64,000 nucleotides of DNA from the NCBI GenBank assembly GCA_029227815.1, contig CP118523.1:1116001-1180000 (forward strand), read 5' to 3'. Shown piece by piece: positions 18,458 through 38,624 of this stretch. The position numbers were made by a program, and so were the translations under genes. Under the pieces are notes generated by a model. The model was not told the origin of the DNA. It did no database searches and worked only from the letters and a program-made list of their open reading frames with translations. Every line of letters starts with the position of its first letter. Position 1 is the first letter of the stretch. The DNA comes from Clostridiaceae bacterium M8S5 (GTDB lineage Bacteria; Bacillota; Clostridia; Tissierellales; MCWD3).

Positions 18458-18468
18458 GGGGGAGATAG

Positions 18469-19046: not shown

Positions 19047-19049
19047 GAT

Positions 19050-19088: not shown

Positions 19089-19125
19089 CATTCTGAAAAT
19101 TATAGTAAAGGTGGTGAATAGACAA

Positions 19126-20622: not shown

Positions 20623-20636
20623 GGGAGAGGTGAAAT

Positions 20637-21056
20637 ATGAACATATACTTATCAGTTAATAATAGAGAACAAGTGATTAAATTGCCAGTACTCCCTAACG
20701 AATTTATGGTTAATACAGGTATGAAAAATGAAAGCTACGACACTATAAGGCAAGGTGAAATAAAATTAATAGGACTTGAGAATCTTAAAACTATAAAAAT
20801 TCAATCCTTCTTTCCAAGTAAAAGATACAACTTTCTAAGGGATAATAAATATAAAGGTTGGAGATACGTAGAGATGATAGAAGGTTGGAAGAGTAGGAGA
20901 GTTCCTATCAGGCTAATAATCACCAATACTCCAATAAATATGCCATGCACAATAGAAGGGTTTGAATATGGTATAAAAGATGGTACTAACGATATATATT
21001 ACACATTGACATTAAGTGAATTTAAGTTTATCAAACTAAAGAAAAAGGGGGTATAG
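20637..21056 (+). CDS. XkdP-like baseplate/tail protein without LysM, cassette 1
   Basis: A 139-residue protein matching the N-terminal part of XkdP-type proteins (MNIYLSVNNREQVIKLPVLP, KTIKIQSFFPS, PINMPCTIEGFEYGI). PBSX XkdP has a LysM wall-binding domain after this; here it is missing, as in many clostridial tail loci. It lies between tape measure and hub genes and likely joins tube to baseplate. AGGGAGAGG precedes the ATG. The paralogue at 35370 is about 65 percent similar by eye. Confidence 0.75.
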   Translation: MNIYLSVNNREQVIKLPVLPNEFMVNTGMKNESYDTIRQGEIKLIGLENLKTIKIQSFFPSKRYNFLRDNKYKGWRYVEMIEGWKSRRVPIRLIITNTPINMPCTIEGFEYGIKDGTNDIYYTLTLSEFKFIKLKKKGV

Positions 21057-21060
21057 TATC

Positions 21061-22023
21061 ATGCATCAATTACACTGTATAACAGATGATGTGCAAACAG
21101 ATATGACACCTCTAGTTGGAAATGTGAGTTGGAGAAGCAATATCAATGAACTTGGTGATCAACTTAATTTTGATATAGCATTTAATGATGATAGATACTT
21201 TCCAGTGATACCTGTAAAAGTCGGGAGTGTAATCATACTAAAAAATGAACAGGAAATATTTAGAGGTATAGTAGTATCTAGCCAGAGAAGTGGTAGAGGT
21301 GCAATAAGCTATACTTGTTTTGATTATGCGTTTTATCTTAATAAAAGTAAAGAGATATATCAATTTAATAAAACACCTGCTAAAGATGCAATACAAAAAA
21401 TACTCAGTGACTTTAAGATACCTATAGGGAAAATTGCTCCAATCAGTACCGTGATAGATAAGATATACAACAATATGGCTATAAGTGAGATATTAAAAGA
21501 TGTTATAAAAATATCTGAAAAAGAAAAAGGCATCAAATATAGAATGGAAATGAGAGAAGGCAAAATATATATTGAAAATCAAGAAGAGCTAATGATAAAA
21601 GCATCATTTAGATTAGCTAGTAATCTCATGAGTCATGCAGCAATAACTTCTATATCAAATCCTAGTAGAAAAATATCAATGGAAGATATGAAAAACAGTA
21701 TAAAAGTAATAGTAAACAAAAAAACTGTTGAGGTAAAAAATCAGAAGTTAATAGACGAATATGGACTATTGCAAGAGGTACTAACAGAAGATAGCGATAA
21801 AGCAAAGGCAAAAAATATTGCAGAAAAGATGCTAAAAGATATAGGGAAATTAATGGAGGAAAACTCTATAGAAATGATAGGAGATGACAGTGCAAGATCA
21901 GGAAGATTGATAGAAATAGATGAGCCTATCACAGGGATGAAAGGCAAATATTTGATAAAAGACGTAAATCATACACTTAGAAATGGTATTCATCGAATGC
22001 AGGTAGGATTAGGGGTGAAATAA
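21061..22023 (+). CDS. xkdQ: XkdQ-like baseplate hub protein, cassette 1
   Basis: The 320-residue protein starts HQLHCITDDVQTDMTPLVGNVSW and contains the beta-barrel hub fold of gp27/XkdQ proteins (FRGIVVSSQRSGRGAISYTCFDYAFYLNKSKE), ending MKGKYLIKDVNHTLRNGIHRMQVGLGVK. It would form the trimeric hub that links the six-fold tube to the three-fold spike. Stop and next start overlap (TAATGG). AAAGGGGGTATAGTATC precedes the ATG. Confidence 0.85.
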   Translation: MHQLHCITDDVQTDMTPLVGNVSWRSNINELGDQLNFDIAFNDDRYFPVIPVKVGSVIILKNEQEIFRGIVVSSQRSGRGAISYTCFDYAFYLNKSKEIYQFNKTPAKDAIQKILSDFKIPIGKIAPISTVIDKIYNNMAISEILKDVIKISEKEKGIKYRMEMREGKIYIENQEELMIKASFRLASNLMSHAAITSISNPSRKISMEDMKNSIKVIVNKKTVEVKNQKLIDEYGLLQEVLTEDSDKAKAKNIAEKMLKDIGKLMEENSIEMIGDDSARSGRLIEIDEPITGMKGKYLIKDVNHTLRNGIHRMQVGLGVK

Positions 22024-22385
22024 TGGAAGGAATAAGCGAGTTTGCAAAACTATTTAAAGAAAGAGACAATAAACCTTATCTAGGTCCACAGTTAGGCACT
22101 GTACAAAGCAAATTTCCCGATATTAAGATATCATTAGGAGATAATGTATTATTGACTAAAAAGAACTTGTATTTTTCATCTCATATAACCAAACATTTTG
22201 AAAGAGAATTCGAAATAGAAGCTAAAGAAGTAAAATTCGAGCAAGAAATGCCTAGCATCACTAAATATCAAAGCAAAGGCAAAATAAAATACAAAGATGT
22301 ATTGAAAAAAGGAGATAAAGTCATACTCATACCTACAACAGATGAGCAAAAATACTATGTAATAGATAAGGTGGTGAAAGTATGA
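22023..22385 (+). CDS. XkdR-like DUF2577 protein, cassette 1
   Basis: A 120-residue protein starting MEGISEFAKLFKERDNKPYLGPQLG, the DUF2577/XkdR pattern. Proteins in this place are thought to contribute to the spike or central baseplate. Unlike its three paralogues in cassette 2, it lacks the central insert with the H-x-H motif. It overlaps both neighbours by a few bases, so it is translationally coupled. Confidence 0.75.
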   Translation: MEGISEFAKLFKERDNKPYLGPQLGTVQSKFPDIKISLGDNVLLTKKNLYFSSHITKHFEREFEIEAKEVKFEQEMPSITKYQSKGKIKYKDVLKKGDKVILIPTTDEQKYYVIDKVVKV

Positions 22386-22828
22386 TGCTACCTAAAATAA
22401 CACAACTTAAATTCAAAGAACAAAAAAGCAAGAACTTACTTAAAATGGGTAAGTCTTTTTTATTTGATTTTGATAAAGGTGATTTTGTCGTTAAAGATGG
22501 AAGACTAGTAGAAGCAAACGATGTAGAATCTCTAAAAGTTTGGATAGAAAAAATACTCAGAACCCAAAGAGAAAAATATCTGGTGTATAAAAGAAGTGAT
22601 GAAGAAGAATACGGTGTAATATTAGAGGATTTAATAATTGGAAATAATTATTCACATTCATTTATAGAATCTGAGATAAAACGAGAGATTAATTCAGCAC
22701 TTATGAGAAATACAATAATATCTTCTGTGTCAGATTTCAAAATAGAGAAAAACAATACAAAACTCAAAGTATATTTTAAAGTGAATTTGATAAATGGCAA
22801 GAGTTTTGACGAGGAGGTGACTGTGTGA
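22382..22828 (+). CDS. xkdS: XkdS-like baseplate wedge protein (DUF2634), cassette 1
   Basis: This 148-residue protein has the features of the DUF2634/gp25-like wedge family: FLFDFDKGDFVVKDGR near the start, LKVWIEKILRTQREKYLVY in the middle and EIKREINSALMRNTIISSVSDF, where the E-I-x-R-E-I pattern resembles the gp25 EPR-type contact. It should connect sheath to baseplate. The ATG overlaps the stop of the previous gene (ATGATG). Confidence 0.85.
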   Translation: MMLPKITQLKFKEQKSKNLLKMGKSFLFDFDKGDFVVKDGRLVEANDVESLKVWIEKILRTQREKYLVYKRSDEEEYGVILEDLIIGNNYSHSFIESEIKREINSALMRNTIISSVSDFKIEKNNTKLKVYFKVNLINGKSFDEEVTV

Positions 22829-23877
22829 CAAACAATGAAATAAAAGATCGAATGTTATCTAAAATAGATGATGAATATGATACATCAGAAGGAACTTTTT
22901 TTAACGACATAATAGGAGCATTAGCTATAGAGCTAGAATCTGCCTACGAAAATTTAGAAGAGATATTGGAACAAGGTTTTGTAGAATCAGCTGAGGGGAA
23001 ATATCTCGATAAAAAAGTCAAAGAAAAAGGTCTGCTTAGAAAGCCACCTATAAAAGCTAAAGCTACTATAGTTATTTCTGGAGTTGAAGGAGCTATGGTT
23101 GAACAAGGAATGAAAGTATCAAGTGATATTGTAAATTTTACAATTATGGAAAGTAAAAGAATAGATAGTAGCGGGAATGTCACAGTGTTAGCAGAATGTG
23201 ACCAAGAAGGCTCAGTAGGAAATCTTCATAAAGGAGCTATAAAATACTTTCCGATTACTATTCAAGGATTAGATAGCGTAACAAATCCAGAGAGTATCTC
23301 AAATGGATACGACGGGGAAGTAGATGATGAGCTAAGAAAGAGATACTATGATAAAGTAAGAATACCTGCAACATCAGGCAATAAAGCCCATTATAGCAAC
23401 TGGGCTATGGAAGTACCGGGTGTTGGAGATGTAAGAGTTATTCCACTATGGGATGGAAAAGGAACAGTGAAAGTAGTAATAATAGACTCAGAAAAAACTG
23501 GAGCAGAAGAAGCTTTAGTAAACATGGTGCATAAACATATAGAAAAAAACAGACCAATAGGAGCTACAGTTACTACAATATCTGCAACAGAGATTCCTGT
23601 AAATATAGGGGTTAGGCTAATAATTGATGAGCTTAATTTCACAAAAGAGCAGGTAAAAGAAACAATATCTGAAAATATACGATTACATTTAAAAGAAATC
23701 GCATTCAAAGATAATATAGTCAGCCATGCTAGATTGGGTAGTATAATTCTTCAATCTGGTGGTGTAAAAGACTATAAAAACCTACTTGTGAATGACAAAA
23801 ATGCAGGGTTAGAAAATCCTAACATAGATATTGGATATGAAGAGGTTGCAGTAGTAGGGGTGATTACAATTGAATAA
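22825..23877 (+). CDS. xkdT: Baseplate J-like wedge protein, cassette 1
   Basis: GTG start at 22825, after GAGGAGGTGAC and overlapping the XkdS stop. The 350-residue protein has the Baseplate_J core: EGTFFNDIIGALAIELESAYENLEEIL, LRKRYYDKVRIPATSGNKAHYSNWAMEVPGVGDVRVIPLWDG and GTVKVVIIDSE. It is the gp6/gpJ-like wedge component that forms the baseplate ring. The next gene overlaps its end by 8 bases. Confidence 0.92.
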   Translation: MTNNEIKDRMLSKIDDEYDTSEGTFFNDIIGALAIELESAYENLEEILEQGFVESAEGKYLDKKVKEKGLLRKPPIKAKATIVISGVEGAMVEQGMKVSSDIVNFTIMESKRIDSSGNVTVLAECDQEGSVGNLHKGAIKYFPITIQGLDSVTNPESISNGYDGEVDDELRKRYYDKVRIPATSGNKAHYSNWAMEVPGVGDVRVIPLWDGKGTVKVVIIDSEKTGAEEALVNMVHKHIEKNRPIGATVTTISATEIPVNIGVRLIIDELNFTKEQVKETISENIRLHLKEIAFKDNIVSHARLGSIILQSGGVKDYKNLLVNDKNAGLENPNIDIGYEEVAVVGVITIE

Positions 23878-25066
23878 GCTACTACAATATTTGCCTAGCT
23901 ACTACAAAACAAGCAAAGTTGCAACAAGTTTGACAGATTCACAATACGAAGAAATAAAAGAACTCAGTTATAGAATACGCAAAGCATTAGAGCAGTTAGC
24001 AATAGACACAGCTGATTATACACTTGATAGATGGGAAAAAGAATATGGCTTGACAATAAATAAATACAAGACAGTAGAGCAAAGAAGAAGCGCTATAAAA
24101 GGAAAGCTCATAGGACAAGGAACATTTACAAAAACAAAAGCATTAGAACTAGCTAATGCTTATAGCAAAGATGGACTAGCTGAGTATGTAAATACAGAAC
24201 ATGAGTATGAATTCAAGACTAGACATAGCGTAGATGATCTTACAAGTCTTAAAAATATGATAGCTTCATTTGAAGAATTCAAACCAGCACACATAAAGCA
24301 TATAGTAGGTTTGTTTGTAGAAAAAGAGATAGGGCCAAAAGTTGATGAATTACTACTAACAGTACAGTTTGAAGTAGATATGACAAAAGAAGACGACCAT
24401 AAATTCATATATCATCTAGCAGGCACAATGCTAGGTTATAGTGAGTTCAATCCAGATACTATAGCAGAGAGATATACAAGCGGTGCTGGATTAATGAATG
24501 GTACTAAAACTTTAGATGGTGAAAACAAAGATGGAATGTACTACTATATACCACATGCAAATGTCATAGAAGATACAGCAATGCAAAAATATGATATCAA
24601 GTCAAAGCTTCATTATAAAAAAGAGACAAATATGAGATACAATTTTTCATATGACATAGGGCTTAACTATGAAGTAGCCGATGATATCAATTATAGATAT
24701 GATGTAAAAGAATTTGCAGAAAGAAACCAAATGTATAAAGTTATAAAGCAAATTCATTTTACAGATATCATCCTTGAGCATGAAAAATCAGAAAAACTCA
24801 GATATACAAAACCACAAAATATGAATATAATACACGATAAAAACGAAGAATTGAATGTGAACTTAGAGGTGTTAGGTATATCGGAATTTAGTCCTGATAA
24901 GATATCAATAGATTATACAGATGGTGCATTAAATCTAGAGGGACTAAAAACACTAAATGGGAAAAATCCTCAAGAAGCAGATTACTATGCTAGAAATTCG
25001 GAAGAGCTTAGTATTAAAAAATATGTAGATAAAAAATTAAAAGAGATAGATATTATAAGGAGGTAA
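23870..25066 (+). CDS. XkdU-like baseplate protein with long repeat extension, cassette 1
   Basis: TTG start at 23870 with GTAGGGGTG upstream. Residues 1-180 match the XkdU/YmfQ family (LPSYYKTSKVATSL, ELAIDTADYTLDRWEKEYGL, IASFEEFKPAHIKHI), which is normally about 180-200 residues; the cassette 2 copy is 176. Here about 220 more residues follow, with an internal repeat: GYSEFNPDTIAERYTSGAG and GISEFSPDKISIDYTDGAL, each followed by KTL(D/N)G(E/K)N. The extension may anchor the fibres encoded next, which have no N-terminal module in common with the cassette 2 fibres. Confidence 0.8.
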   Translation: MNKLLQYLPSYYKTSKVATSLTDSQYEEIKELSYRIRKALEQLAIDTADYTLDRWEKEYGLTINKYKTVEQRRSAIKGKLIGQGTFTKTKALELANAYSKDGLAEYVNTEHEYEFKTRHSVDDLTSLKNMIASFEEFKPAHIKHIVGLFVEKEIGPKVDELLLTVQFEVDMTKEDDHKFIYHLAGTMLGYSEFNPDTIAERYTSGAGLMNGTKTLDGENKDGMYYYIPHANVIEDTAMQKYDIKSKLHYKKETNMRYNFSYDIGLNYEVADDINYRYDVKEFAERNQMYKVIKQIHFTDIILEHEKSEKLRYTKPQNMNIIHDKNEELNVNLEVLGISEFSPDKISIDYTDGALNLEGLKTLNGKNPQEADYYARNSEELSIKKYVDKKLKEIDIIRR

Positions 25067-25072
25067 CATACA

Positions 25073-25462
25073 ATGGCAAGTATTAAAACAAATATAGGAA
25101 GAGAGAAATTAGCAAAGGCACACTCAGGAACGAAAGCATTACCAGAAATCACACACATAGCATTTGGAAAAGGTGGAACATTCCTTACAGAAGAAAGACA
25201 TGCACCAAAAGAATTGACAGGAGCTGAGACGACTCTATTTGATGAAGTGATAAGAAAAGAACCAGTAAAAAGTTTTCCAGATAGCTATACAGCAAGATAC
25301 ACAGCAACAATAGATGCAGATGTGGACAAGCTAGTAGGAGTAGATTTAAACGAAGCATGTTTAATAGATACAGAAGGTGACATGGTAGCAATCAAGACAT
25401 TTACAAACAAAGGCTTAGAAGAAAAAACAGTAATCACATTTGACTATGATGCTAAGTTTTAA
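25073..25462 (+). CDS. Tail-collar fibre-type protein
   Basis: A 129-residue protein with the N-terminal pattern of phage tail-collar fibre proteins (ITHIAFGKGG, then RYTATIDADVDKLVGVDLNEACLIDTEGDMVAIKTF). In other tails this domain is the attachment head of a long fibre; here it stands alone as a small protein, so it may be an adaptor. AAGGAGGTAAC precedes the ATG. No copy exists in cassette 2. Confidence 0.75.
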   Translation: MASIKTNIGREKLAKAHSGTKALPEITHIAFGKGGTFLTEERHAPKELTGAETTLFDEVIRKEPVKSFPDSYTARYTATIDADVDKLVGVDLNEACLIDTEGDMVAIKTFTNKGLEEKTVITFDYDAKF

Positions 25463-25476
25463 GTGGAGGTGAAAAC

Positions 25477-25824
25477 ATGATAATAGATTCATTAAAATTG
25501 AAGCCCTTAAAAGGGCTTCAGTATAAAGATATAAAAAGGATAGTACAAGGTTTTAAGACAACCACACCAGACCATGCAAACTATTTCAATCAAGCACTAC
25601 AGCTCTTAATAGACAATGACGTGACACTAGACAATCTTACAAACGAAGCAGTAAGAGAGTTGAAGTTAAACCAGATGGATATAGCAATAGAGCTAGAGAC
25701 ATTAAAAGGAGCATTGTTAACAGGAGTAGATTCAAATATCATGGTTCAGACATTTGAAGAGCTAGAGGGTGATTTGAGATTTGGTGTTTATAATAAGCCA
25801 GAAAAAACACTGGATATTATTTAG
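25477..25824 (+). CDS. Small helical tail-locus protein of unknown function
   Basis: The 115-residue product (LKLKPLKGLQYKDIKRIVQGF, then NYFNQALQLLIDNDVTLDNL) looks helical and acidic. It is not recognised. It lies between two fibre-type genes with an AGTGGAGGTG ribosome site, so it may be a fibre assembly chaperone or adaptor. Codons 9-14 contain a perfect hairpin in the mRNA (25500-25519). Confidence 0.5.
   Translation: MIIDSLKLKPLKGLQYKDIKRIVQGFKTTTPDHANYFNQALQLLIDNDVTLDNLTNEAVRELKLNQMDIAIELETLKGALLTGVDSNIMVQTFEELEGDLRFGVYNKPEKTLDII
25500..25519 (+). promoter_or_regulatory. Strong hairpin inside the start of a coding region
   Basis: GAAGCCCTT (25500-25508) pairs perfectly with AAGGGCTTC (25511-25519) across a two-base gap, 24 bases after the start codon of the 115-residue gene. 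It could slow translation or act as an mRNA processing site; it could also be codon chance. Confidence 0.4.
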
Positions 25825-25840
25825 AAAGGAAGTGAAGTAA

Positions 25841-28066
25841 ATGGCGATAAGTAATCAATATAGGGATACTATAATTAATGTTTTTACGAAAAATTATAGT
25901 AATTATAAACAATCATATGGTGCAGATGATTTAGATTATGGAGTATATTCTGATGGTAGGGAGATTTTTAGTGGTGAACGTACATTAAAAATAAATAGTA
26001 ATGGTTCTAGAAATAATAACTGGACAAGTGGATTTAATGTGACAGGAGTAGCTAACGCTCCATACTTAGCAATGGGAAGTGTATATAAAGACAATGTAAC
26101 AGTATTTTTATCTCATCCAAGCAATGGATACAATTATGGATATATAAAAGATACATTTTTATCTTCGCCTACAACTATTTCTCCTGTGACTACAATTGAT
26201 TACAGAAGTAAATTTGGAAACAATATATTAGCAAATCAAAACAATTTTTGGATAGGACATGGGTTAGAAGATGGCCTTTGGATTATGGAATATGTAAGTG
26301 GAGGTAGTAGAGGTACTGTCGCATATAATGGATACACATATACTCAAAAATTAACAGGTACTTGTAGAGTTAAGCTAAAAAAATACGATTACAAAAATCT
26401 TAATTTGTTAAATGAAATTACTGTAAATTTGCCAAATCTTTATTTTCAAACAGGTGAAGATTCAGTAATAGGAGGATTTGAGTTAGCGGGTGTTTTTGTC
26501 ATTAATTTGACAGGAAACCAATTTGCAATTATTTGTTTAGATGATGGCAGTATTGCAGGGACATTCAACCTACCGATTAGCAGTTTAAGTGGTAATCAAC
26601 CGCTTACATTTTCATACCTACATGGTGTAATAGCAGGAGATGGTGGGGATAACGATGGTGATAGTTTTATAATGATTAAACTAAACGATTTCCACAACCA
26701 CCCAGAACTAATAAGAACAAACGAAATACCTAAAGTACCTAGTAGCTTAAGCCCAACAGGATTTACAAATAGCCCAGAAACAATATCGACTCTTACACCT
26801 ACACTAAGCTGGGTATTTGCTGATGATGACGAGGGAGATGTCCAAGGTAAATTACAAGTGCAAATATTTAAAGCATTAGACAATTCCTTAGCACATGATA
26901 CAGGAGCATTAGTGAATGGAAGTGCTAGCTATACAGTACCACAAGGAACTCTTGAACCAGATACAAAGTATTACTGGAAAGTTAGAGTTTGGGATAACAA
27001 TGATGATGTTAGTGAATACACTACAAACAGATACTTTGTAACAACAAAAGCACCTAGCATCAATGTAGTGTCACCAATTGGATCAGATTCAGTACCAGTG
27101 AAAGGTATATCAGTAATTCCAAGATTAGAATGGACATATTCAGATGATGAAAATCATGGACAAACACATATACAGGTTGTAATCAAAGATAGTGATGCTT
27201 ATATAGTACATGACACTGGCAAGATAGCGTGTACAGATAAATATTACAATGTACCTGCTGGTGTGTTATATCAGAGTGAAAAATATAGCTGGGCAGTAAC
27301 TGTATGGGATAGTACAGATATGAAAAATACTCCTATGAATCCACAATATTTTATCACAAACTATACACCACAGAAACCAACAGCACCAATGCCTATAGAT
27401 AACTATAGAGTGCCACTTAGACCTACTTTTGAGTTTACAGCTCCTATAGATGTTGAAGATGATAAACTCCACTTTAAGCTCAACTTATCTCTAAGTGATA
27501 CTTTTGAAAGTACCATGATAAAAGACAGTGGATTAGACACTACAGGTTGGGAATATCAAGATGGTGATTCATGGGTAGCTATTCCAGCAGAAGGATTAGC
27601 ATCAGAGTTCTATGGACGTAGAGTTAGGTATACATTTACTGAGGATTTAACAGAGAAGAAGACATATTACTGGAGAGTAACAGGATATAACAGAGGATTA
27701 GGTAGTCCAAAACAGTATGTATACAGTGATACAAAACGTATAAGAGTAGGAGATAGGATAGTATATCAAGAAACACCTTATACTACAACAGACAGAGCAG
27801 AGAGAATACTAGCAAAGATATTCATGAATACAGAAGCTGATGGAGTTAAACCAGTATCATATACAATAGAAGTATGTAACAATGCACTAGATGAAAATCC
27901 AACATGGGAAGATATGACACAGTCAGTAAAACAAAAGAAGTATCATGTGTTTGCAAACCAATCCAAAACAGCAACAGACTGGGCAGTATCATACAAACTG
28001 ACAGTGATGGCTAATGATACGATGGGGAAAATTAGTGTAGAATCTGTGAGTATATGCTTTGATTAG
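25841..28066 (+). CDS. Receptor-binding fibre/adhesin with fibronectin-like domains, cassette 1
   Basis: The 741-residue protein has a unique N-terminal part of about 300 residues rich in Asn, Gly, Ser and Tyr, then three fibronectin type III-like domains at about 303-400, 404-508 and 510-640, each with a TPTLSW or PRLEW opening and a YYWKVRVWD, YSWAVTVWD or YYWRVTGYN strand, and a C-terminal domain. It is the last structural gene of cassette 1 and the best candidate for its target-recognition protein. The N-terminal part gives no family match by eye. AGAAAGGAAGTG precedes the ATG. Confidence 0.7.
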   Translation: MAISNQYRDTIINVFTKNYSNYKQSYGADDLDYGVYSDGREIFSGERTLKINSNGSRNNNWTSGFNVTGVANAPYLAMGSVYKDNVTVFLSHPSNGYNYGYIKDTFLSSPTTISPVTTIDYRSKFGNNILANQNNFWIGHGLEDGLWIMEYVSGGSRGTVAYNGYTYTQKLTGTCRVKLKKYDYKNLNLLNEITVNLPNLYFQTGEDSVIGGFELAGVFVINLTGNQFAIICLDDGSIAGTFNLPISSLSGNQPLTFSYLHGVIAGDGGDNDGDSFIMIKLNDFHNHPELIRTNEIPKVPSSLSPTGFTNSPETISTLTPTLSWVFADDDEGDVQGKLQVQIFKALDNSLAHDTGALVNGSASYTVPQGTLEPDTKYYWKVRVWDNNDDVSEYTTNRYFVTTKAPSINVVSPIGSDSVPVKGISVIPRLEWTYSDDENHGQTHIQVVIKDSDAYIVHDTGKIACTDKYYNVPAGVLYQSEKYSWAVTVWDSTDMKNTPMNPQYFITNYTPQKPTAPMPIDNYRVPLRPTFEFTAPIDVEDDKLHFKLNLSLSDTFESTMIKDSGLDTTGWEYQDGDSWVAIPAEGLASEFYGRRVRYTFTEDLTEKKTYYWRVTGYNRGLGSPKQYVYSDTKRIRVGDRIVYQETPYTTTDRAERILAKIFMNTEADGVKPVSYTIEVCNNALDENPTWEDMTQSVKQKKYHVFANQSKTATDWAVSYKLTVMANDTMGKISVESVSICFD

Positions 28067-28204
28067 GTAGGGGGATACTTCTTTCCTAACAATAAAAAAC
28101 ATTAAAAACAAACAGAATAAAGAAAGAGAAGATAAAACAACTATAATAAAAACTAAAACTATCTAAAGCATATTTATAAAAGAGTATTAAAAGGAATAAA
28201 CTAT

Positions 28205-28707
28205 GGTCATACTTCTGAGTGTGGCTCTCTATTTTTTGTAAGGAAGCGTTAAAAAACATCATTCTAACTCGGAGAAGCATCTGTTTTTTTGATTGAATAA
28301 ATGATAAAACAGCTACTTCAATGTCGTTTACGAATGATGTTCTTTAGCTTCTAATAGGTTTATTGATTATTCTATTTTAGGGTAAATCTTCGGAGAGAGT
28401 AGGAAAAACTCATTGATTATAATAATTCATTGGAGAAGGGGAATCAAAGATAATCTTTGCGGTGCAGTAGAGAAGCTGTTTCTAACTATTTTAAGTAGAA
28501 GCGTTGAATAAACAGCTCCTCAAATTTACCTACAAGAAACATCTTTTAATTCCCCTAGTGATATTGTTGGTTGTTATTTTTAGGGTAGTTTATTGGGTCA
28601 TAAATTTAAACTCTAAAATCACATATTAAACACAAAAAGTCAATTTAATGGAGCAAAAGCTGAACAAATAAAGTTATGAGTAACCACAAGAACCACAAAG
28701 ATAATCT
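28205..28707 (+). ncRNA. Structured RNA module type I, copy A
   Basis: No coding frame. Helices include AACATCATTC (28255-28264) with GAATGATGTT (28332-28341); an inner stem GAAGCATCTGTTTT/AAAACAGCTACTTC; GAGAAGCTGTTT (about 28470) with AAACAGCTCCTC (about 28510); a CAAAGA/TCTTTG hairpin at 28445-28459; and GGTAAAT with ATTTACC. The first two have changed sequence but kept pairing in copy B. Single-stranded parts such as CTAACTCGGAGA and TCAATGTCGTTTACG are unchanged. It ends with a box (28656-28707, AAGCTGAACAAATAAAGT..ACCACAAG..CACAAAGATAATCT) shared by all modules. Strand is taken from the tail operon. Confidence 0.65.
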
Positions 28708-28749
28708 AAAAAATATATGAGTAATCAACAAAATAACAAAGAAGAATTA

Positions 28750-29233
28750 GGGTCATGCTTTGGAGTGTGGCTATTTACTTTTTGTGTGGAAGCGTTAAAT
28801 AACATTTGCCTAACTCGGAGAGAGCAGTGTTTCTTTAATTATATTAGTGATGATGAAACACTACTCTCAATGTCGTTTACGGCAAATATTATTTAGCATC
28901 TAGTAGGTTTGTTGGTCGTTCATTCTGTAGGGTAAAGCTTTGGAGTGAGGAAAGATACTCATTGTAAATAGTGATTCATTGGTGAAGGGGAATCAAAGAT
29001 AATCTTTGAGGTGCAGTAGAGAAGCTGTTTCTAACTATTTTAGTAGAAGCGTTGAAGAAACAGCTCCTCAAATTTACCTGCAAGAAATATCTTTTGATTC
29101 CCTAAGGCTTTATTGGTTAGATATTTAGGGCAATAAATTAGGGTAAAACAATTAAAGTTTTACCTGAGCAAGAAAACAAAAAAAGCTGAACCGATAAAGC
29201 TATGAGTTACCACAAGACCCACAAGGGTAATCT
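28750..29233 (+). ncRNA. Structured RNA module type I, copy B
   Basis: A second module of about 480 bases, parallel to copy A over its whole length with a period near 545. The main stem here is AACATTTGCC (28801-28810) with GGCAAATATT (28881-28890) and the inner stem GAGAGCAGTGTTTC with GAAACACTACTCTC; both differ from copy A at several paired positions at once, which is compensatory change. GGGAATCAAAGAT with ATCTTTTGATTCCC, and the AAGCTGTTT/AAACAGCT stem, are also kept. The 3' box is 29182-29233. Confidence 0.65.
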
Positions 29234-29270
29234 TTAATAATTGACATTAATAACCAATAAGCAACTAAAG

Positions 29271-29611
29271 AAGCATATCCCGTTTTTCTGGAGAAGCGAC
29301 TTTAGAGTGCTTATTTCTACAACGCTTTTATACAATCATTAGAAATAAGTGCTATATGGAGTCCGTAAGAAATTAGGATATGCTTACACCAATGAGTAAG
29401 GAGTCGCCTAGAACTATCCTACCAAAGAATTACCCTAAAAATAAGATATCAAAAACAACTTGAAGCTGAGATTGTTTTTCGACCGCGACATTGGAAGTTG
29501 TAATTTAACATTAAGTGGGTCGAAAAATTACAGCTTACTCCGAGCAAGAAAAACAATCGAAAAGCTGAACAAATAAAGTAACGAGTGACCACAGACCCAC
29601 AAAGATAATCT
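29271..29611 (+). ncRNA. Structured RNA module type II, copy 1, with extra hairpin
   Basis: AAGCATATCC (29271-29280) pairs with GGATATGCTT (29376-29385), enclosing TTTTTCTGGAGAAGCGACTT and a perfect 13-bp stem, AGTGCTTATTTCT (29306-29318) with AGAAATAAGTGCT (29341-29353), whose loop has CGCTTTTATA. Between this and the 3' box (29560-29611) sits another hairpin closed by GATTGTTTTTC (29470-29480) and GAAAAACAATC (29548-29558). The first part matches 8228-8330 and 29648-29761. Confidence 0.65.
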
Positions 29612-29647
29612 AAAGTAGACAATATAAATACCAACAAACTAACAAAG

Positions 29648-29806
29648 AAGCATATCGGTTTTTCTGGAGAAGCGACTTTAGAGTGCTTATTTCTGAAACG
29701 CTTTTATATGATTATTAGAAATAAGTGCTATACGGAGTCCGTAAGAAATTAGGATATACTTTAACCTATAGGTGATGAATAACCATAAGACTCACAAAGA
29801 TAATCT
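29648..29806 (+). ncRNA. Structured RNA module type II, copy 2
   Basis: AAGCATATC (29648-29656) pairs with GATATACTT with one mismatch; the 13-bp stem AGTGCTTATTTCT (29682-29694) with AGAAATAAGTGCT (29717-29729) is perfect, while its loop differs from copy 1. A shortened 3' box (CATAAGACTCACAAAGATAATCT) ends at 29806, 40 bases before the next gene. Confidence 0.65.
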
Positions 29807-29845
29807 GAAAAAACCATAACGTATAGTCTTTAAAAGGAGGAAAAC

Positions 29846-30010
29846 ATGAAAATATTAAAGCTAACAGATTTATTTGATAAAAGAAAAAAAGATAACGAAC
29901 AGAAACTGAAAATCAAAGAGCTAGAAAAGCAAAATGTAGAGCTTTTATTAGCAGTAGCAGAATTATACGAAAAACAAGTACAAATGCAAGATAAACTAAA
30001 CAAAGAATAG
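29846..30010 (+). CDS. Small coiled-coil protein (54 residues)
   Basis: MKILKLTDLFDKRKKDNEQK followed by a long charged helix with heptad Leu/Val spacing (ELEKQNVELLLAVAELYEK). AAAAGGAGG lies 6 bases before the ATG. It is the first gene after the RNA array and pairs with the CD1375-like gene 14 bases on, a placing like XkdW/XhlA-type small genes in PBSX. Family not recognised; it may link to membrane or tail fibres. Confidence 0.6.
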   Translation: MKILKLTDLFDKRKKDNEQKLKIKELEKQNVELLLAVAELYEKQVQMQDKLNKE

Positions 30011-30155: not shown

Positions 30156-30764
30156 ATGAAAATTATTGAGGATTTCATAGATAAAAGGTACAATAAAATG
30201 CAGGCAAAATACATCACTATACATGAAACAGGAAGTTATAACATAGGAGCAGATGCTAAAGCACATAATAGATATCTACATAGAACAGATACAGACAATA
30301 AGTGCTGGCATTTTACAGTGGACGATAAGAGTATCTATCAACATATTCCTGTAGATTACAACGGATGGCATGCAGGTGATGGTCTTAGGGGAATAGGCAA
30401 TAGAGAAAGTATAGGAATAGAACTATGCGTAAATGAAAACGGAGATTTTAATAGGACGTTAGAAAATGCTGTGTGGCTTTGTAAGAAGCTATTAAAAGAA
30501 AATCCATTAATAAAAGAAGTGGTTCAACATAACTATTGGAAAAGTAATAAGTATCCCAAAGGGAAAGATTGTCCACGTACCCTTAGACGAACAAATAGAT
30601 GGAATGAATTTTTAGATAATATATATAAAGAAAGAAAGCATTGGGCAGAGGTTCATTATGACAACCTCAAAGCAAAAGGCATAAAAATAGATGAAAAAAG
30701 ATTCGATGATTATATGACTAGAGGAGAAGTACTTGCTTTAATAGATAAATTAACAGACAAATAA
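30156..30764 (+). CDS. N-acetylmuramoyl-L-alanine amidase (Amidase_2 type)
   Basis: The 202-residue enzyme cuts the amide bond between MurNAc and L-Ala in peptidoglycan. Zinc ligands are His23 (YITIHETG), His125 (VVQHNYW) and Cys139 (GKDCPRTLR), in T7-lysozyme/XlyA order, with GNRESIGIEL in between. No signal peptide, so holin-dependent. The C-terminal 45 residues form a short helical segment ending TRGEVLALIDKLTDK, like a degenerate wall-binding repeat. It is the second wall hydrolase of the locus, after that at 14706. GGGGCAGGGGGAG lies before the start. Confidence 0.92.
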   Translation: MKIIEDFIDKRYNKMQAKYITIHETGSYNIGADAKAHNRYLHRTDTDNKCWHFTVDDKSIYQHIPVDYNGWHAGDGLRGIGNRESIGIELCVNENGDFNRTLENAVWLCKKLLKENPLIKEVVQHNYWKSNKYPKGKDCPRTLRRTNRWNEFLDNIYKERKHWAEVHYDNLKAKGIKIDEKRFDDYMTRGEVLALIDKLTDK

Positions 30765-31051: not shown

Positions 31052-31474
31052 ATGAAACTAAAAGATATAAAAAAAGCTGTAATAGATAAACTAACAGCTA
31101 GTTTTCCTGAGTTTGATGTATTTGGAGAAAATAAGAGTAGTGAAGCAAATAAATCAAAATTTATCGTAGAACTTAATCCTATATATATGGGGGTTGAAAG
31201 TAGTTATCATAGGCGACAATACGTGAATATAACTATTAGAATCCACACTCAAAATAAAACAAATGATGAGTATATAGATGTAGTGGACAAGCTATATAAG
31301 ATTATTGATGCAACAATCAAGGTTAATGATAGAGAACTTTATATAAATAAAATAAGGATGATAAAGGAAAACGATATCTTAAAGTGTTCATTCAATATTA
31401 ATTATGAGGATGAAATAGAAAGAAATGAAAATTATGAGTTGATGAAAGAATTAAATTTTAAGGAGGAATATTAA
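31052..31474 (+). CDS. Tail terminator-like protein, cassette 2
   Basis: A 140-residue paralogue of the gene at 16455: same length, LKDIKKAVIDKLTASFPEF at the start and INYEDEIERNENYELMKELN at the end. By position it caps the tube below the sheath gene. It follows the same GAAAGGAGGAAGGGGTGA ribosome region, and its stop overlaps the sheath start. Confidence 0.7.
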   Translation: MKLKDIKKAVIDKLTASFPEFDVFGENKSSEANKSKFIVELNPIYMGVESSYHRRQYVNITIRIHTQNKTNDEYIDVVDKLYKIIDATIKVNDRELYINKIRMIKENDILKCSFNINYEDEIERNENYELMKELNFKEEY

Positions 31475-32619
31475 TGGGGTTAGGATTACCAAAAATCGAA
31501 ATCAATTTTAAAACACAAGGAGTTACAGCAATAGAAAGAAGTGCGAAAGGAATAGTTGCGTTAATTTTAAAACATCATGTTGATGTTAAAAAGGAAAATA
31601 GTGAAGAAATCAAAGTAAAAGGAGATCATATTACAGGTACATCTTTTGAATATAAATCAATAGATGAAATAGGTACTTACTTAGTAAAAGACTCAACAGA
31701 TAAAGCTGATGATTGGGGAGTTCAGAACTTAAAATATATCAAACAAGCATTTTTAGGAACTCCTAGTAAGGTAATTGTTGAATATCTCACTACATCAGAG
31801 AGTATAAATGATGGACTAGGTAGATTAAAAACAAAAAAATGGAATTATTTAGCTATACCAGAAATCATGAGAGAAGAATCAACAGTAGCTTCATGGGTTA
31901 GTGGTGAAAGAACTAATAACAAGAAGACATTTAAAGTAGTTTTACCAAACGAAGGACTTGGTGGAAACTGTGAAGGTATCATAAATTTCTGTGCTAGTAA
32001 TATAAAAACTAAAGACTCAGATGTGTTTAGTGGAGCAGAGTATGCACCTAGAATAGCTGGTATTTTAGCAGGACTACCATTTACAAGAAGTGCTACTTAC
32101 TATGATTTAGGAGAAGTAGTAAGTGTGGACGCATTTGATGATTCAAATAAAGAAATCAACGAAGGCAAGCTAATATTAATCAACGACGGTGAAAAAGTCA
32201 AAATAGCAAGAGGTGTGAATGCTTATACACAAACTACAGTTACAAAAGGTGAATCATTCAAAAAGATAAAGATAGTAGATGCAGTTGATTTAATGACAGA
32301 TGATATAAGAGATACATTCAATAACTACTATGTAGGTAAGATAACTAACTCATATGATCACAAAGTATTATTCTTATCAGCTATAAATGCATACTTTAAA
32401 GCATTAGAGAAACAAGAAATTTTAGATCCATCATATGATAATAAAGCACAAATAGATATCGAAGCACAAAAGTTATATCTTCAAGGAAAAGGTCTAGACG
32501 TGAGTACAATGAAAGAGCAACAAATAAAAGAGTACAATACAGGAAGTCAGGTATTTATAAGTGCTAAAGTTAAATTGCTAGACGCAATGGAAGACTTAAT
32601 GATGGAAATATCAATGTAG
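31474..32619 (+). CDS. xkdK: Contractile tail sheath protein, cassette 2
   Basis: A 381-residue sheath protein with the same N-terminal handle as the cassette 1 sheath, a longer and different segment at about 33-75, and an almost identical C-terminal half from GILAGLPFTRSATYYDLGEV on. The polymer-forming ends are thus the same in both sheaths while the exposed middle differs. It should form the contractile sheath of a second particle, or mixed sheaths with the first. Confidence 0.92.
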   Translation: MGLGLPKIEINFKTQGVTAIERSAKGIVALILKHHVDVKKENSEEIKVKGDHITGTSFEYKSIDEIGTYLVKDSTDKADDWGVQNLKYIKQAFLGTPSKVIVEYLTTSESINDGLGRLKTKKWNYLAIPEIMREESTVASWVSGERTNNKKTFKVVLPNEGLGGNCEGIINFCASNIKTKDSDVFSGAEYAPRIAGILAGLPFTRSATYYDLGEVVSVDAFDDSNKEINEGKLILINDGEKVKIARGVNAYTQTTVTKGESFKKIKIVDAVDLMTDDIRDTFNNYYVGKITNSYDHKVLFLSAINAYFKALEKQEILDPSYDNKAQIDIEAQKLYLQGKGLDVSTMKEQQIKEYNTGSQVFISAKVKLLDAMEDLMMEISM

Positions 32620-32631
32620 GAGGTAGATTAG

Positions 32632-33075
32632 ATGAATAAATTATCAGGAAATAGAGTGATAAACGGTACATGGGGAGAAATATGGTTAGAAGGCGAAAAA
32701 ATAAGTGAATTAACAGGATTAGATGCTAAAATCACACTTAAAAAAGAAGACGTAAGTATGTGTGGAGTATTAGCAAAAGAATCTAAGATAACAGGCTGGG
32801 AAGGAAAAGGAACACTAAAGCTACACAAGGTGAATTCAAGAATGGCTCAGTTATTAGGAGATAACATAAAGCAAGGAAAAGACGTAAGATTTACAATAGT
32901 TGCAAAGCTTGCGGACCCTGATACAATAGGAAATCAATCAGAGAGAGTTGCACTAAAAGGAGTAAGCTTTGATGACCTTACAGTAATGAACTTTGAGATG
33001 AAGGCACTAGGAAAAGTAGAGTGTCCATTTACATTTACAGACTATGATTTCATGGATTTAATAAGTCCAGAATAG
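32632..33075 (+). CDS. xkdM: Tail tube protein, cassette 2
   Basis: A 147-residue XkdM-type tube protein, identical to the cassette 1 copy except Ser for Lys three residues from the end. The DNA, including the spacer GGAGGTAGATTAG before the start, is nearly the same too. Such identity next to clearly diverged genes suggests gene conversion or a recent exchange. Confidence 0.92.
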   Translation: MNKLSGNRVINGTWGEIWLEGEKISELTGLDAKITLKKEDVSMCGVLAKESKITGWEGKGTLKLHKVNSRMAQLLGDNIKQGKDVRFTIVAKLADPDTIGNQSERVALKGVSFDDLTVMNFEMKALGKVECPFTFTDYDFMDLISPE

Positions 33076-33086
33076 GGGGAAGATAG

Positions 33087-33482
33087 ATGAGTACTTTAGA
33101 TTTATTGTTACAATTAGACGAAAGCAAACTTAAAAAGCCTAGCAAAGAAGTAGAGATGAAAAGATTATCAGAGCTATTGGGAGAAAAAATAATATTTAAG
33201 GTGGAAGCTCTAACACCTAAAAAAATGGATGAAATTCAAACAATGAGCACAGACGAAGAAAAAGAGACAATGAACATGGGTGAATTACAGCTATTAGCAG
33301 TAATGGAAGGTGTAAAAGAGCCAAACTTTAAATCAAAAGAACTAATGGATAAATTTGGAGTATATACCCCTAAAGATTTAATTAGAAAGATATTACTTCC
33401 AGGTGAGATAATCACTCTTTATGGTATCGTAGGCGATTTAAGTGGATTTGATGGTGGAGCAATAGAAGAAGTAAAAAACTAA
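33087..33482 (+). CDS. xkdN: Tail assembly chaperone, zero-frame product, cassette 2
   Basis: A 131-residue XkdN-like protein with only a few substitutions from the gene at 18469 (for example Glu for Gln at 12, Ile for Met at 35). The slippery heptamer A AAA AAC is at 33473-33479 just before the stop, as in cassette 1. Confidence 0.9.
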   Translation: MSTLDLLLQLDESKLKKPSKEVEMKRLSELLGEKIIFKVEALTPKKMDEIQTMSTDEEKETMNMGELQLLAVMEGVKEPNFKSKELMDKFGVYTPKDLIRKILLPGEIITLYGIVGDLSGFDGGAIEEVKN

Positions 33483-33652
33483 TAAATACAGATGGATTAA
33501 CACAGATGATGTATTACTATTGGAATACAAAGGGTATAAGACCATCTGTACTTTACAACATGCCAAAAGGAGAGTTGTTAGTGGTAACAGCTTTTTATGA
33601 ACAAGAACTAAAAGACAAAGAAGAACTTTTAAAAGCAAGAGGGATAGAATAA
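33479..33652 (+). CDS. -1 frameshift extension of the chaperone, cassette 2
   Basis: In the -1 frame after 33473-33479 the sequence reads LINTDGLTQMMYYYWNTKGI and continues to KDKEELLKARGIE with TAA at 33650-33652. The first about 45 residues match the cassette 1 extension, then the tails differ. Conservation of a frame without its own start supports programmed frameshifting. Confidence 0.85.
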   Translation, partial: LINTDGLTQMMYYYWNTKGIRPSVLYNMPKGELLVVTAFYEQELKDKEELLKARGIE

Positions 33653-33667
33653 ACTACATCATATATT

Positions 33668-33709
33668 AGGGGTTGTTATAAATGTATAATACATTTAAGC
33701 AACCCCTTT
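33668..33709 (+). terminator. Attenuator-like hairpin before the tape measure gene, cassette 2
   Basis: AGGGGTTG (33668-33675) pairs with CAACCCCT (33700-33707), with AAATGTA/TACATTT inside, then TT and AAAATT. The sequence is unrelated to the cassette 1 hairpin but the position is the same. Confidence 0.65.
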
Positions 33710-33734
33710 AAAATTGTATAAAGGTGGTGAAAAT

Positions 33735-35357
33735 ATGAGTAGTGAAGTAGAAAAAAAATTAAAAGCTCGTAGTGATACTATAAATGAGCAAAGCATAGCT
33801 GGTAAGAATAGTATAGCAGAACAGCCAAGATATTTTAAAGATGGAGTTGATGACTTTGTAAATTTATATACTCAAAATGCTAGATTTAAGTATTTTTTTA
33901 GAGAAGTTCACAGTGCTCCTAAATCTGTTTACAACATGAATGCTGAAGTATATACACATAAGATAAATAATCAAATTGAAAAAAGAAGAAAATTACTTTC
34001 AGAGAAGGCAAGAATAGATAATAAAATAAAAAACGCTAATAGTTATGCTGAAGAAAAATTATTAAAGAAAGATTTAGAAAATATACAGCAAAAAATAAGA
34101 AGTAATAAATCGATGACTAGAGAACTTTCAAGTAATAAGGTGAAAGGGAAACCTGTTAATAGTTTCTATAAAAAAATGATGAACAGAGCACGCAAATTTA
34201 ATAGCAAGTTGTGGAAAAATTATAACATATATAAAGCATGGGCTATAACAGGAGTCGAAAATTTTGTAGATAAATCAATAAAAAAAATACCTTATATTGG
34301 TGAAAAAATACTGTCAGGAGGAAAGTATCTAGGCAAGAACTTACAAAAGATATTACCCGGCGTAGATATAGGAGTGAATAGTTATGTACTTGCAACTGAT
34401 CCAAGCAATTTTAAAAGGTCGTTAGCGGGATTAGATATGCTAGGATATGCGGGATTTTTAGCAGGTCCAGAAGTAGGGGTACCAGTTAAAGCTATAACAG
34501 GATATTTAAACTTTTTCGGAGCATTAGGTTACGATATCGCAAGTTCTTTTGATTCAACAAGGTTTATTGCAGAATGGTTAGATGATAATTCACCAGATAT
34601 TAAAAGTGTTACGGATAAATACATTACACCTGAAAATATTATAGGGATATCTGCAGCCGCTAATATGGCTATGCCGGGTGCTTTGGATGCAGGAATATGG
34701 ATAGCTAAGCAGATGGAGAATAACGGATTAGATTCTCAAGCTATGAAAAAGAATATAGCGAAAACTGATAGTATACCTGAAATAATAAATCAAAGCAAAA
34801 CAACACCAAAATTAAAAACGCCAAAAAAAACAACAATAAAAAATAGTAAAGCTACGATAAATCCATCAAATATAACTGAATTCAATGGCAAGTATTATTA
34901 TCATGAAAAACCACTACCTAAGATTGATTTATCAAATATATCTCCAAAACAAGATTCGATTGATTTTAGGGGAATAAATATACCAAAATTACCACCAAAA
35001 GAATTAAAAGAAATACCTATAAAGCAACCTATACCAAGATTAAAAAGGAGATACGATAGGTTAGAGCCTTTAAAAATGACACCTATAAAGCTAAATAATA
35101 ATTTGAAACCATATATTATGCCGTATGATAGCTCAAACATCAATATCTATAATAAAAAAGATGGCAAAGGAAGACCTGGATTTTTAAAGAGGTTGTTTGG
35201 TACATCAAACAAAAACAAATCTACAAACAACACAAGTAATAATAACAGCAATAGAAACAGTATCATCTTAAACGTGAATGGTGCTAATTTATCTACTGAT
35301 CAAATAGTAAATGAAATCGTCACCAATTTAAATATTGCAATGGGGAATACTGCGTAA
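33735..35357 (+). CDS. Small tape measure protein, cassette 2
   Basis: Start chosen at ATG 33735 after AAAGGTGGTG (540 residues). It begins with a coiled-coil part (MSSEVEKKLKARSDTINEQ, then IEKRRKLLSEKARIDNKI), has a hydrophobic segment near 230-270 (FKRSLAGLDMLGYAGFLAGP), a Pro/Lys-rich part at about 360-470, and the tape measure-type end SIILNVNGANLSTDQIVNEIV. It is about 40 residues longer than the cassette 1 protein, so its tail may be slightly longer. Overall similarity to that protein is limited to the core and the end. Confidence 0.75.
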   Translation: MSSEVEKKLKARSDTINEQSIAGKNSIAEQPRYFKDGVDDFVNLYTQNARFKYFFREVHSAPKSVYNMNAEVYTHKINNQIEKRRKLLSEKARIDNKIKNANSYAEEKLLKKDLENIQQKIRSNKSMTRELSSNKVKGKPVNSFYKKMMNRARKFNSKLWKNYNIYKAWAITGVENFVDKSIKKIPYIGEKILSGGKYLGKNLQKILPGVDIGVNSYVLATDPSNFKRSLAGLDMLGYAGFLAGPEVGVPVKAITGYLNFFGALGYDIASSFDSTRFIAEWLDDNSPDIKSVTDKYITPENIIGISAAANMAMPGALDAGIWIAKQMENNGLDSQAMKKNIAKTDSIPEIINQSKTTPKLKTPKKTTIKNSKATINPSNITEFNGKYYYHEKPLPKIDLSNISPKQDSIDFRGINIPKLPPKELKEIPIKQPIPRLKRRYDRLEPLKMTPIKLNNNLKPYIMPYDSSNINIYNKKDGKGRPGFLKRLFGTSNKNKSTNNTSNNNSNRNSIILNVNGANLSTDQIVNEIVTNLNIAMGNTA

Positions 35358-35369
35358 AGGAGGGGGATA

Positions 35370-35789
35370 ATGGATATATTTTTGTCAATTAACAACAGAG
35401 AAGAAGTAATAAAATTGCCAGTTCTTCCAACTGAGTTCAAAACTAATTCATCAATGAAAAACCAAAGCTATGAAACTATCTCACAGGGAGAAATAAAGCT
35501 AATTGGAACAGAGTCGTTAAAAACTATTTCCATACAATCATTCTTTCCTAATAAAGAGTATGAATTTGCAAGAGATGACAAATATAAAGGTTGGGAATAT
35601 GTAGAGTTAATTGAAGATTGGAAGAAAAAAAGGATACCAATAAGACTGACTATAACAAATTCACTAATTAATATGCCATGTACAATAGAAAGTTTTGAGT
35701 ATGGATTGCAAGATGGCAGTGGAGATATATACTATACACTTTCTTTAAGTGAGTTTAAGTATATAGACCTCGATCAAAAGGAGGTATAG
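35370..35789 (+). CDS. XkdP-like baseplate/tail protein, cassette 2
   Basis: A 139-residue paralogue of the gene at 20637, same length, with FLSINNREEVIKLPVLPTEF and INMPCTIESFEYGL. It lacks a LysM domain too. AAAGGAGGGGG precedes the ATG. Confidence 0.75.
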   Translation: MDIFLSINNREEVIKLPVLPTEFKTNSSMKNQSYETISQGEIKLIGTESLKTISIQSFFPNKEYEFARDDKYKGWEYVELIEDWKKKRIPIRLTITNSLINMPCTIESFEYGLQDGSGDIYYTLSLSEFKYIDLDQKEV

Positions 35790-35792
35790 TAT

Positions 35793-36761
35793 ATGCATCA
35801 ATTATATTGTATAACAGATAATGTCCAGACTAATATTACGCCTTTAGTAGGAAATATAAGTTGGAGTAGTGATGTAAGTCAATTAGGAGATAGACTAAAT
35901 TTTAGTATAGCATTTAATGATAGCAGATTTTTCCCAGAGATTCCAGTGGAGGTTGGAAGTAGTATAGTTCTAAAAAACAAGGATGAAATATTTAGAGGAA
36001 TAGTAGTGACAAGTTCACAAAATGGTAGAGGTTCAATAAGCTATACTTGTCTAGACTACGCATTTTATCTTAACAAATCCAAAGAAATATATCAGTTTAA
36101 CAAAATATCAGCAAAAAGTGCACTAGAAACGATATTTGGTGATTTTGGTATTTCTATAGGGAGAGTAGCATCAATAGATACAGTGATTAATAAGATATAC
36201 AACAACAAAGTTATAGCTCAAATAATAAAAGATATACTAACAACAGCAGAAAATGAGAGTGGCATAAAGTACACAATGGAGATGAGACAAAATAAAATAT
36301 ATATAGAAAAGCAAGAAGACTTAGTAATAAAGGCTACATTTAAGCTGTCAAAAGATGCACAAGAGATGGATGTATCTAAATCAATATCAAATCCCGTAAG
36401 AAATATCACTATAGAGAATATGAAGAACAGTGTCAAGATACTAATAGATGAAAACAAACAAATTGAGAAGAAAGATTCAAAGCTAATAGGAAAATATGGA
36501 CTACTACAAGAAGTCATAGTAGCAAAAAATGAAGAAGATTCAAAAGCAAAGAATATAGCCGAAAAAGTACTCAAAGACCTAGGAAAAGTCATGGAAGATA
36601 ATACACTTTCAATGATAGGTAATGATGCTGTAAGAGCTGGTAGGTTAATGGAGATACAAGAGCCAGTAACAGGTATGAGTGGCAAATATCTAATAAAAAA
36701 CGTCAAACATACACTGAAAAACGGTATACATCTAATGCAACTAGGATTAGGGGTGAAGTAA
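35793..36761 (+). CDS. xkdQ: XkdQ-like baseplate hub protein, cassette 2
   Basis: A 322-residue paralogue of the gene at 21061 (HQLYCITDNVQTNITPLVGN, IFRGIVVTSSQNGRGSISYT, MSGKYLIKNVKHTLKNGIH). It should form the baseplate hub of the second particle. It is followed with no gap by the first of three spike-type genes. Confidence 0.85.
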   Translation: MHQLYCITDNVQTNITPLVGNISWSSDVSQLGDRLNFSIAFNDSRFFPEIPVEVGSSIVLKNKDEIFRGIVVTSSQNGRGSISYTCLDYAFYLNKSKEIYQFNKISAKSALETIFGDFGISIGRVASIDTVINKIYNNKVIAQIIKDILTTAENESGIKYTMEMRQNKIYIEKQEDLVIKATFKLSKDAQEMDVSKSISNPVRNITIENMKNSVKILIDENKQIEKKDSKLIGKYGLLQEVIVAKNEEDSKAKNIAEKVLKDLGKVMEDNTLSMIGNDAVRAGRLMEIQEPVTGMSGKYLIKNVKHTLKNGIHLMQLGLGVK

Positions 36762-37214
36762 ATGCAGGGAATAAACGAGTTAGCCAAGTTGTTTAAAGAA
36801 AGAGACAATAACCCTTATATAGGTCCTTTAATAGGAGTAGTTGTAGAGCCATTACCAGATATACAAATTGCTTTAGGAGAAAAGATATTGCTTACTAAAG
36901 AGAATCTAGTTGTAGATTTGATGTTTAAAGAGCATGAGAGAAGCTTTGAGATATCTGGGGATATAAAATTAACTCAGGATGAACCTTGCGAAACAGAAGA
37001 GGGAACTTTTACTGAAAAAACTACAAACCCAAATGCACCGACACCGCATCCACATCATCATAAAGTACCAGAGATAACATTAGACACACAATATGAAGGT
37101 AAAGGGGTCATAAAATTTAGTGATATGAAGCTTGAAAAAGAAGACCTAGTTTTATTGGTTCCAAGTAGTGATGAACAAACTTATTATCTTATAGATAAGG
37201 TAAAGCAGTTGTAA
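36762..37214 (+). CDS. XkdR-like DUF2577 protein 1 with His-rich tip motif, cassette 2
   Basis: The 150-residue protein keeps the family start (MQGINELAKLFKERDNNPYIGP) and end (DLVLLVPSSDEQTYYLIDKV). An insert around residues 75-105 contains TPHPHHHK (His96, 98, 99, 100). H-x-H motifs of this kind bind iron at the tip of P2-type tail spikes, so this may be a membrane-piercing tip. First of three tandem paralogues. Confidence 0.75.
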   Translation: MQGINELAKLFKERDNNPYIGPLIGVVVEPLPDIQIALGEKILLTKENLVVDLMFKEHERSFEISGDIKLTQDEPCETEEGTFTEKTTNPNAPTPHPHHHKVPEITLDTQYEGKGVIKFSDMKLEKEDLVLLVPSSDEQTYYLIDKVKQL

Positions 37215-37242
37215 TATAAGAAAGTGAAATGAGGGAAGAAAA

Positions 37243-37704: not shown

Positions 37705-37719
37705 TTAGGGGTGATAATC

Positions 37720-38604: not shown

Positions 38605-38624
38605 ACCTAGGGAGGTGAAGTAAT

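Follow-up and report, generated by a model that had tools for sequence, protein, structure and literature searches.

A genus-restricted family of dispersed two-hairpin repeats, probably of MITE/BIME kind, in Clostridiaceae bacterium M8S5

Described folded repeats and the present family

REP palindromes carry a GTAG/CGTC tag, and the large RNAs GOLLD and ROOL are tied to prophages or phages. MITEs, BIMEs and the BOX of pneumococcus are dispersed folded repeats (PMC3049150, PMC2817692, PMC10969869). The palindromes of REP/BIME show compensatory change (PMC2817692), and REP palindromes typically measure 20-40 bp (PMC3733652). BOX, RUP and SPRITE of Streptococcus pneumoniae are interspersed repeats of modular build; RNA folds are predicted for them, and they have proliferated in one lineage (PMC3049150).

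The family described here is built from two hairpins, which we term P1 and P2. Like MITEs, it is AT-rich, non-coding, intergenic, many-copy, non-autonomous and strongly folded, and a P2-only subfamily in the sister species, the only other species of the genus and family that was examined, has TIRs and 10-12-bp target duplications; unlike in MITEs, no TIR or TSD was found for its P2-P1 arrays, and one strand folds into covarying hairpins that have conserved internal loops rather than into a palindrome of ends. With REP/BIME, and with REPINs and RAYT, it shares dispersed extragenic hairpins, mosaic arrays, both orientations and compensatory change, whereas its hairpins are 110-137 nt in size with internal loops and are not short palindromes, and its RAYT-like genes are not flanked by copies. 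It is modular, interspersed, folded and proliferated in one lineage, as are BOX, RUP and SPRITE, from which it differs (compared by description, not by sequence) in the alternation of two large hairpins whose internal loops are conserved and in belonging to another host group. The 195-nt period also separates it from these, and this period, the single folded strand and the mostly outward-facing mixed arrays set it apart from MITEs, BIMEs and BOX together. With GOLLD and ROOL it has in common that a long, folded sequence without coding capacity is found close to phage genes, but there is no covariance-model match, and the family is highly dispersed, not present in few phage-tied copies.

The array in the window and the anatomy of its unit

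The window, to which the positions below refer, is the whole stretch analysed, 64,000 nt of Clostridiaceae bacterium M8S5 (GCA_029227815.1, CP118523.1 1,116,001-1,180,000). The initial annotation had described two modules repeated over their whole length without a reading frame, and this was confirmed: modules A and B, which start near 28202 and 28748, are direct repeats that align end to end with about 76% identity, and the open reading frame list has no ORF of at least 80 aa between 28066 and 30156. The paired arms and unchanged loops quoted there are present in the sequence as well. Two extra related copies, modules C (29262-29612) and D (29639-29806), lie in the orientation opposite to A and B. 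Iterative profiles, covering 33 stretches of the M8S5 genome and the window, showed that C and D share the core of about 300 bp of A and B in inverted form, and that a 50-nt tail linker is on the plus strand in all four; therefore, the array reaches about 29812 and is mosaic. Its seven hairpins (28203-29812) occupy the interval that separates a tail-fibre-like gene (25841-28066) from an amidase gene (30156-30764); A and B fold on the minus strand, C and D on the plus strand. The description of tandem modules within a tail operon thus stands for the repetition of A and B at this place, but the array also includes C and D and the family is genome-wide.

Read on one strand, a linker leads into the P2 hairpin, an A/C-rich linker joins P2 to the P1 hairpin, and the tail linker follows P1. 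In P1, an asymmetric internal loop, with GTAAACGACATTG facing CTCCGAG or the variant GCAGGG, separates the outer helix from the inner one; P2 has three helices (outer, short middle and inner), and its terminal loop, CAACGCTTTTA, is conserved. The internal loops are conserved, and the stems change freely yet stay paired. Covariance models were built for the two hairpins, R1 for P1 and R2 for P2. The P1 model matches P2 copies and the P2 model matches P1 copies, so the two hairpins look related.

The hairpins of A and B are on the minus strand. Module A has its P1 hairpin, with two helices around the conserved internal loop GTAAACGACATTG/CTCCGAG, at 28240-28353 (120.4 bits with R1 in cmsearch) and its P2 hairpin at 28426-28561 (112.6 bits with R2), both being training rows of their models and both showing covariation; in module B, P1 is at 28786-28902 (116.6 bits) and P2 at 28975-29108 (119.5 bits). 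All other parts are on the plus strand. An orphan C-type tail linker of 50 nt lies between A and B (28657-28708, nhmmer), and another C-type tail linker (29182-29233, nhmmer) follows what is left of a P1 3' half, recognised in the sequence, and this marks an inversion junction. Module C contains P2 at 29262-29396 (116.3 bits with R2; the P1 model also matches, E 4.9e-6), P1 at 29460-29571 (87.7 bits with R1) and its tail linker at 29562-29612 (nhmmer), while the truncated unit of module D has P2 at 29639-29772 (107.6 bits with R2) and ends in a tail linker at 29764-29806 (nhmmer). At the outer edge of A, antisense to the fold, there is a terminator-like hairpin with a T-rich tract (28205-28226), the equivalent of which in B is at 28751-28772. 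The window holds a second copy, decayed and comprising P2 and tail, between convergent genes at 8217-8471 (78.1 bits with R2; tail by nhmmer).

In both species, neighbours on the same strand alternate as P2-P1-P2-P1 at a median distance of about 195 nt. The order P2 before P1 was counted 16 and 25 times in the two species, against 7 and 4 times for P1 before P2; the alternation has one exception, a single P1-P1 case. Many copies are fragments. Some P2 matches of the sister are about 199 nt long instead of 137 (genome G001, C80:40128, C69:61756, C49:41959 and others), and in the long P2 on contig C80 an additional folded stretch of roughly 60-80 nt is inserted around the terminal loop.

Compensatory change and the folded strand

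The base-pairing of P1 and P2 is maintained by compensatory change. In 33 P1 hairpins of the two species, standard pairs make up 93.1% of the cells, compared with 75.1% in shuffled and 44-54% in slid controls, and both-sided changes occur in 20 of the 31 pairs. The corresponding figures for 35 P2 hairpins of the two species are 96.7%, 73.3% and 44-50%, with both-sided changes in 16 of 19 pairs. The hairpins were aligned by MAFFT without structure; each structure was taken from one sequence of its alignment, and for P2 poorly paired columns were then dropped, which favours the structures over the controls, but by less than the excess seen. Since the members are related, the covariation counts are not independent events. 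The selected pairing proposed in the initial annotation is thus borne out in both hairpins, far above shuffled and slid controls. Compensatory change as clear as this is unusual for a bacterial interspersed repeat.

When a G-C or A-U pair mutates, it gives G·U on the folded strand and A·C if it is the opposite strand that folds. For P1, the ratio of G·T to A·C was 33:10 in the two core helices (alignment A2, columns 13-22 and 35-48) and 46:18 over all columns with per-pair counts; for P2, it was 52:6 in well-paired columns and 73:12 in a set of 73 sequences. P2 is more stable on the G·T-rich strand in 67 of these 73 sequences (p 8e-13), and the difference in fold energy between the strands of P1 was not significant. 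With G·U far above A·C, the fold of C and D is assigned to the plus strand and that of A and B to the minus strand, which for A and B is opposite to the strand that the initial annotation implied. Such a fold fits RNA, or single-stranded DNA tolerating G·T, and a double-strand cruciform does not fit. This asymmetry tells which strand folds, a point rarely shown for repeats of this type.

Distribution and movement in two species

In the M8S5 genome (4.68 Mb), 56 places match pieces of 28200-29850 by blastn; the repeat loci number about 30-40, nearly all of them between ordinary genes. The same blastn sensitivity gave 25 further places in the sister. R1 yielded 28 matches in M8S5 and 86 rows in the sister, and R2 yielded 39 and 75, some of the sister rows in both searches being the two strands of one place. 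Neither model matched in about 290 other genomes of the class, searched with the stricter filters for a large set, and R2 did not match in 39 other genomes of the order. A blastn-level search of 58 other genomes of the order returned just scraps of 33-40 bases, in two of them, and distant blastn gave no match in the phage (50,697 records) or plasmid collections. A strict form of the P1 loop pattern was absent from the viral collection; in the genome collection, which leaves out records close to the M8S5 genome, its lone match was in a Balneolaceae record, and this was rejected, being at about the chance rate by estimate and having no R1 match. The array region is unmatched in Rfam release 15 at gathering score, and at E<=5 cmscan returned for it solely one microRNA model, far below its cut-off; the initial annotation, which could recognise no known class, was right in this respect. 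A partial coverage of the literature produced no report of such a family in this group. The repeat family appears to be undescribed and, among the genomes searched, is confined to one bacterial genus. In the sister, the SpoIIGA and SigE genes adjoin ftsZ, and thus the host is a spore-forming bacterium of the Firmicute type.

In a tree of 48 units, the A/B type of M8S5, the C type of M8S5 and the sister types form separate, well-supported clades. Copies occur at no fewer than one orthologous position in both species (L035 in M8S5, contig C80 in the sister). The L055 gap measures 349 bp in M8S5, where it contains a copy, and 76 bp in the sister, where it contains none; the sister orthologues of L041 and L058 likewise lack the repeat. 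The genes that bracket the L032 region are separated by about 440 bp in the sister, and no element is listed between them. Junctions within hairpins are seen at L055, where half a P1 hairpin is fused to half a P2 hairpin, and in the window, where the junction at 29182 falls within a P1 hairpin. On the sister stretch L116:3914-5440, two repeat fragments flank a transposase-like gene of 508 aa, as if an insertion sequence had landed in the array.

The sister also contains elements of 300-370 bp bounded by inverted 16-bp ends, TAGKTARTTRCARAAC. This sequence gave 66 matches there with at most one mismatch, compared with 3 for a control pattern. About 20 forward/reverse pairs of ends, paired by eye, lie within 420 bp of each other, and about 15 of them enclose an R2 match to P2; exact direct repeats of 10-12 bp abut the ends in 5 of 8 end pairs on the contigs examined. 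The P2-only subfamily of the sister is a true MITE with the P2 hairpin as its interior. These insertions bring a related hairpin together with exact target duplications, so that a mobile context can be seen directly.

The TIRs were not seen to enclose an autonomous element, and no TIR pairs 1-2 kb apart were listed in the draft assembly of the sister at up to one mismatch. Small repeat-bearing contigs of the sister were considered as an autonomous element and rejected, as they carry ordinary genes. M8S5 has four Y1 transposase genes, and no match to P1, P2 or the unit (nhmmer, R1) was found within 1.5 kb of them; a Y1/RAYT transposase as partner was rejected because no copy is near. Three M8S5 loci (L074, L075 and L076) hold two intact RAYT-like Y1 genes and one apparently frame-broken relative.

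We consider it likely that the sequences are non-coding, non-autonomous repeats, dispersed in the genome and restricted to one genus, and that they form a family of the MITE/BIME kind, of which the array in the window is one locus. The P2-P1 units would have spread by transposition, and the window array may have arisen from insertion followed by local duplication and inversion of such units. Several results stand against this. For the P2-P1 arrays, that of the window included, no inverted ends were found and the flanks are no more complementary than the control; no target duplication was found either, and the excess of direct repeats stems largely from the P2-only MITEs and from linker sequence. 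No transposase is tied to the family, and the strong selected pairing exceeds what transposition alone needs. The M8S5 copies are old, being at most 86% alike, and do not attest recent movement, while separate loci of the sister are up to 92% alike.

Gene context and the possible role of the fold

The fold most likely has no job specific to a phage tail. It probably acts in single-stranded form, most likely as a transcript or as an intermediate of replication or transposition, and would do so through the conserved internal loops. With its clear compensatory change, its assignable folded strand and the visible insertions in the sister, the family lends itself to the question of why small mobile repeats retain a fold.

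It is possible, although we are inclined to doubt it, that the repeats are a true non-coding RNA family, in which the P2-P1 unit would be transcribed and its internal loops would bind a protein or RNA partner, its many copies being due to its nature as a selfish or regulatory RNA gene. The one-strand fold that tolerates G·U, and the conservation of internal loops between freely varying paired stems, agree with such an RNA; moreover, at loci with both orientations the folded strands point outwards in 11 of 12. Against it, the copies occur in both orientations relative to genes, with a bias that is opposite in the two species; a rule of orientation relative to adjacent genes was for this reason rejected. 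Promoter-like sites in the array region are no more frequent than in shuffles, many copies are incomplete, and Rfam offers no relative. A bolder proposal, which we regard as rather unlikely, would join this RNA to mobility: P2-P1 would be a structured RNA specific to the genus, with conserved internal loops that a dedicated partner recognises and that drive the element's spread or a genome-wide regulation, in effect an RNA-based mobile repeat of a kind undescribed in bacteria, with P2 captured also as MITE cargo.

The position of the copies relative to genes bears on a different function, that of a 3' element serving the host as a bidirectional terminator, an mRNA stabiliser or a chromosome-organising site like the BIMEs of enterobacteria. 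Among 38 clusters of M8S5, the gaps were 21 convergent, 17 same-direction and none divergent, as classed from greedy ORF calls. The filtered hairpin loci of the sister were 14 tandem, 1 convergent and 1 divergent, with 2 at contig edges, and gaps of at least 100 bp on sister contigs chosen without regard to the repeat were 379 tandem, 92 divergent and 53 convergent. The copies are thus mostly 3' of genes and avoid divergent gaps. This near confinement to the 3' sides of genes speaks for a host-serving element, as does the terminator-like hairpin with T tract that A/B-type edges turn towards incoming transcription. However, avoidance of promoters by itself explains the position bias, and some orthologous gaps lack a copy. 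The terminator-like motif is present in just 8 of 24 M8S5 copies and in none of 45 sister copies, and is thus a subfamily trait at most; a terminator role for the array edges was dropped, the motif being confined to M8S5. We consider a host function of this kind improbable. At one locus (L036:4120-4820), a single unit lies between AAAGGGGCTGTCGGAAA and TTTCCGACAACCCTTTG, which look like the two arms of a split terminator stem with T's after it. Insertion of arrays into split terminator stems as a rule, suggested by this locus, was not upheld, as the flanks are no more complementary than mismatched controls.

A large phage RNA of the GOLLD/ROOL type acting in assembly of the tail particle, for which the place of the array in a contractile-tail gene region speaks, is hardly credible: the copies are chromosome-wide and away from phage genes, which contradicts it, the same interval between tail genes and amidase gene in the syntenic contractile-tail locus of the sister has no hairpin, and neither the 50,697 phage records nor Rfam at E<=5 gave a match. 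The initial annotation had raised both this kinship and a special RNA of a headless-tail locus serving assembly or packaging, and neither is supported, with about 30-40 loci nearly all between ordinary genes. We take this as a warning that covariation inside one window is not enough by itself to infer that the local operon has a functional RNA gene.

Beyond the amidase gene, the sister has four repeat loci with no counterpart in the window. None of ten proteins tested from the tail region was a capsid, portal or terminase. The region comprises two successive contractile-tail operons (14706-28066 and 31052-46629), the sheath proteins of which belong to one family (phrog_1480 in both), and the homologous region on sister contig C71 has a single set of contractile-tail genes in the stretch examined. 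The sole Rfam match in the window is an FMN riboswitch on the minus strand at 11539-11666 (RF00050, 118 bits). Adjoining the tail locus on the plus strand, one open reading frame of 3567 aa (51576-62279) is about 57% conserved in the sister.
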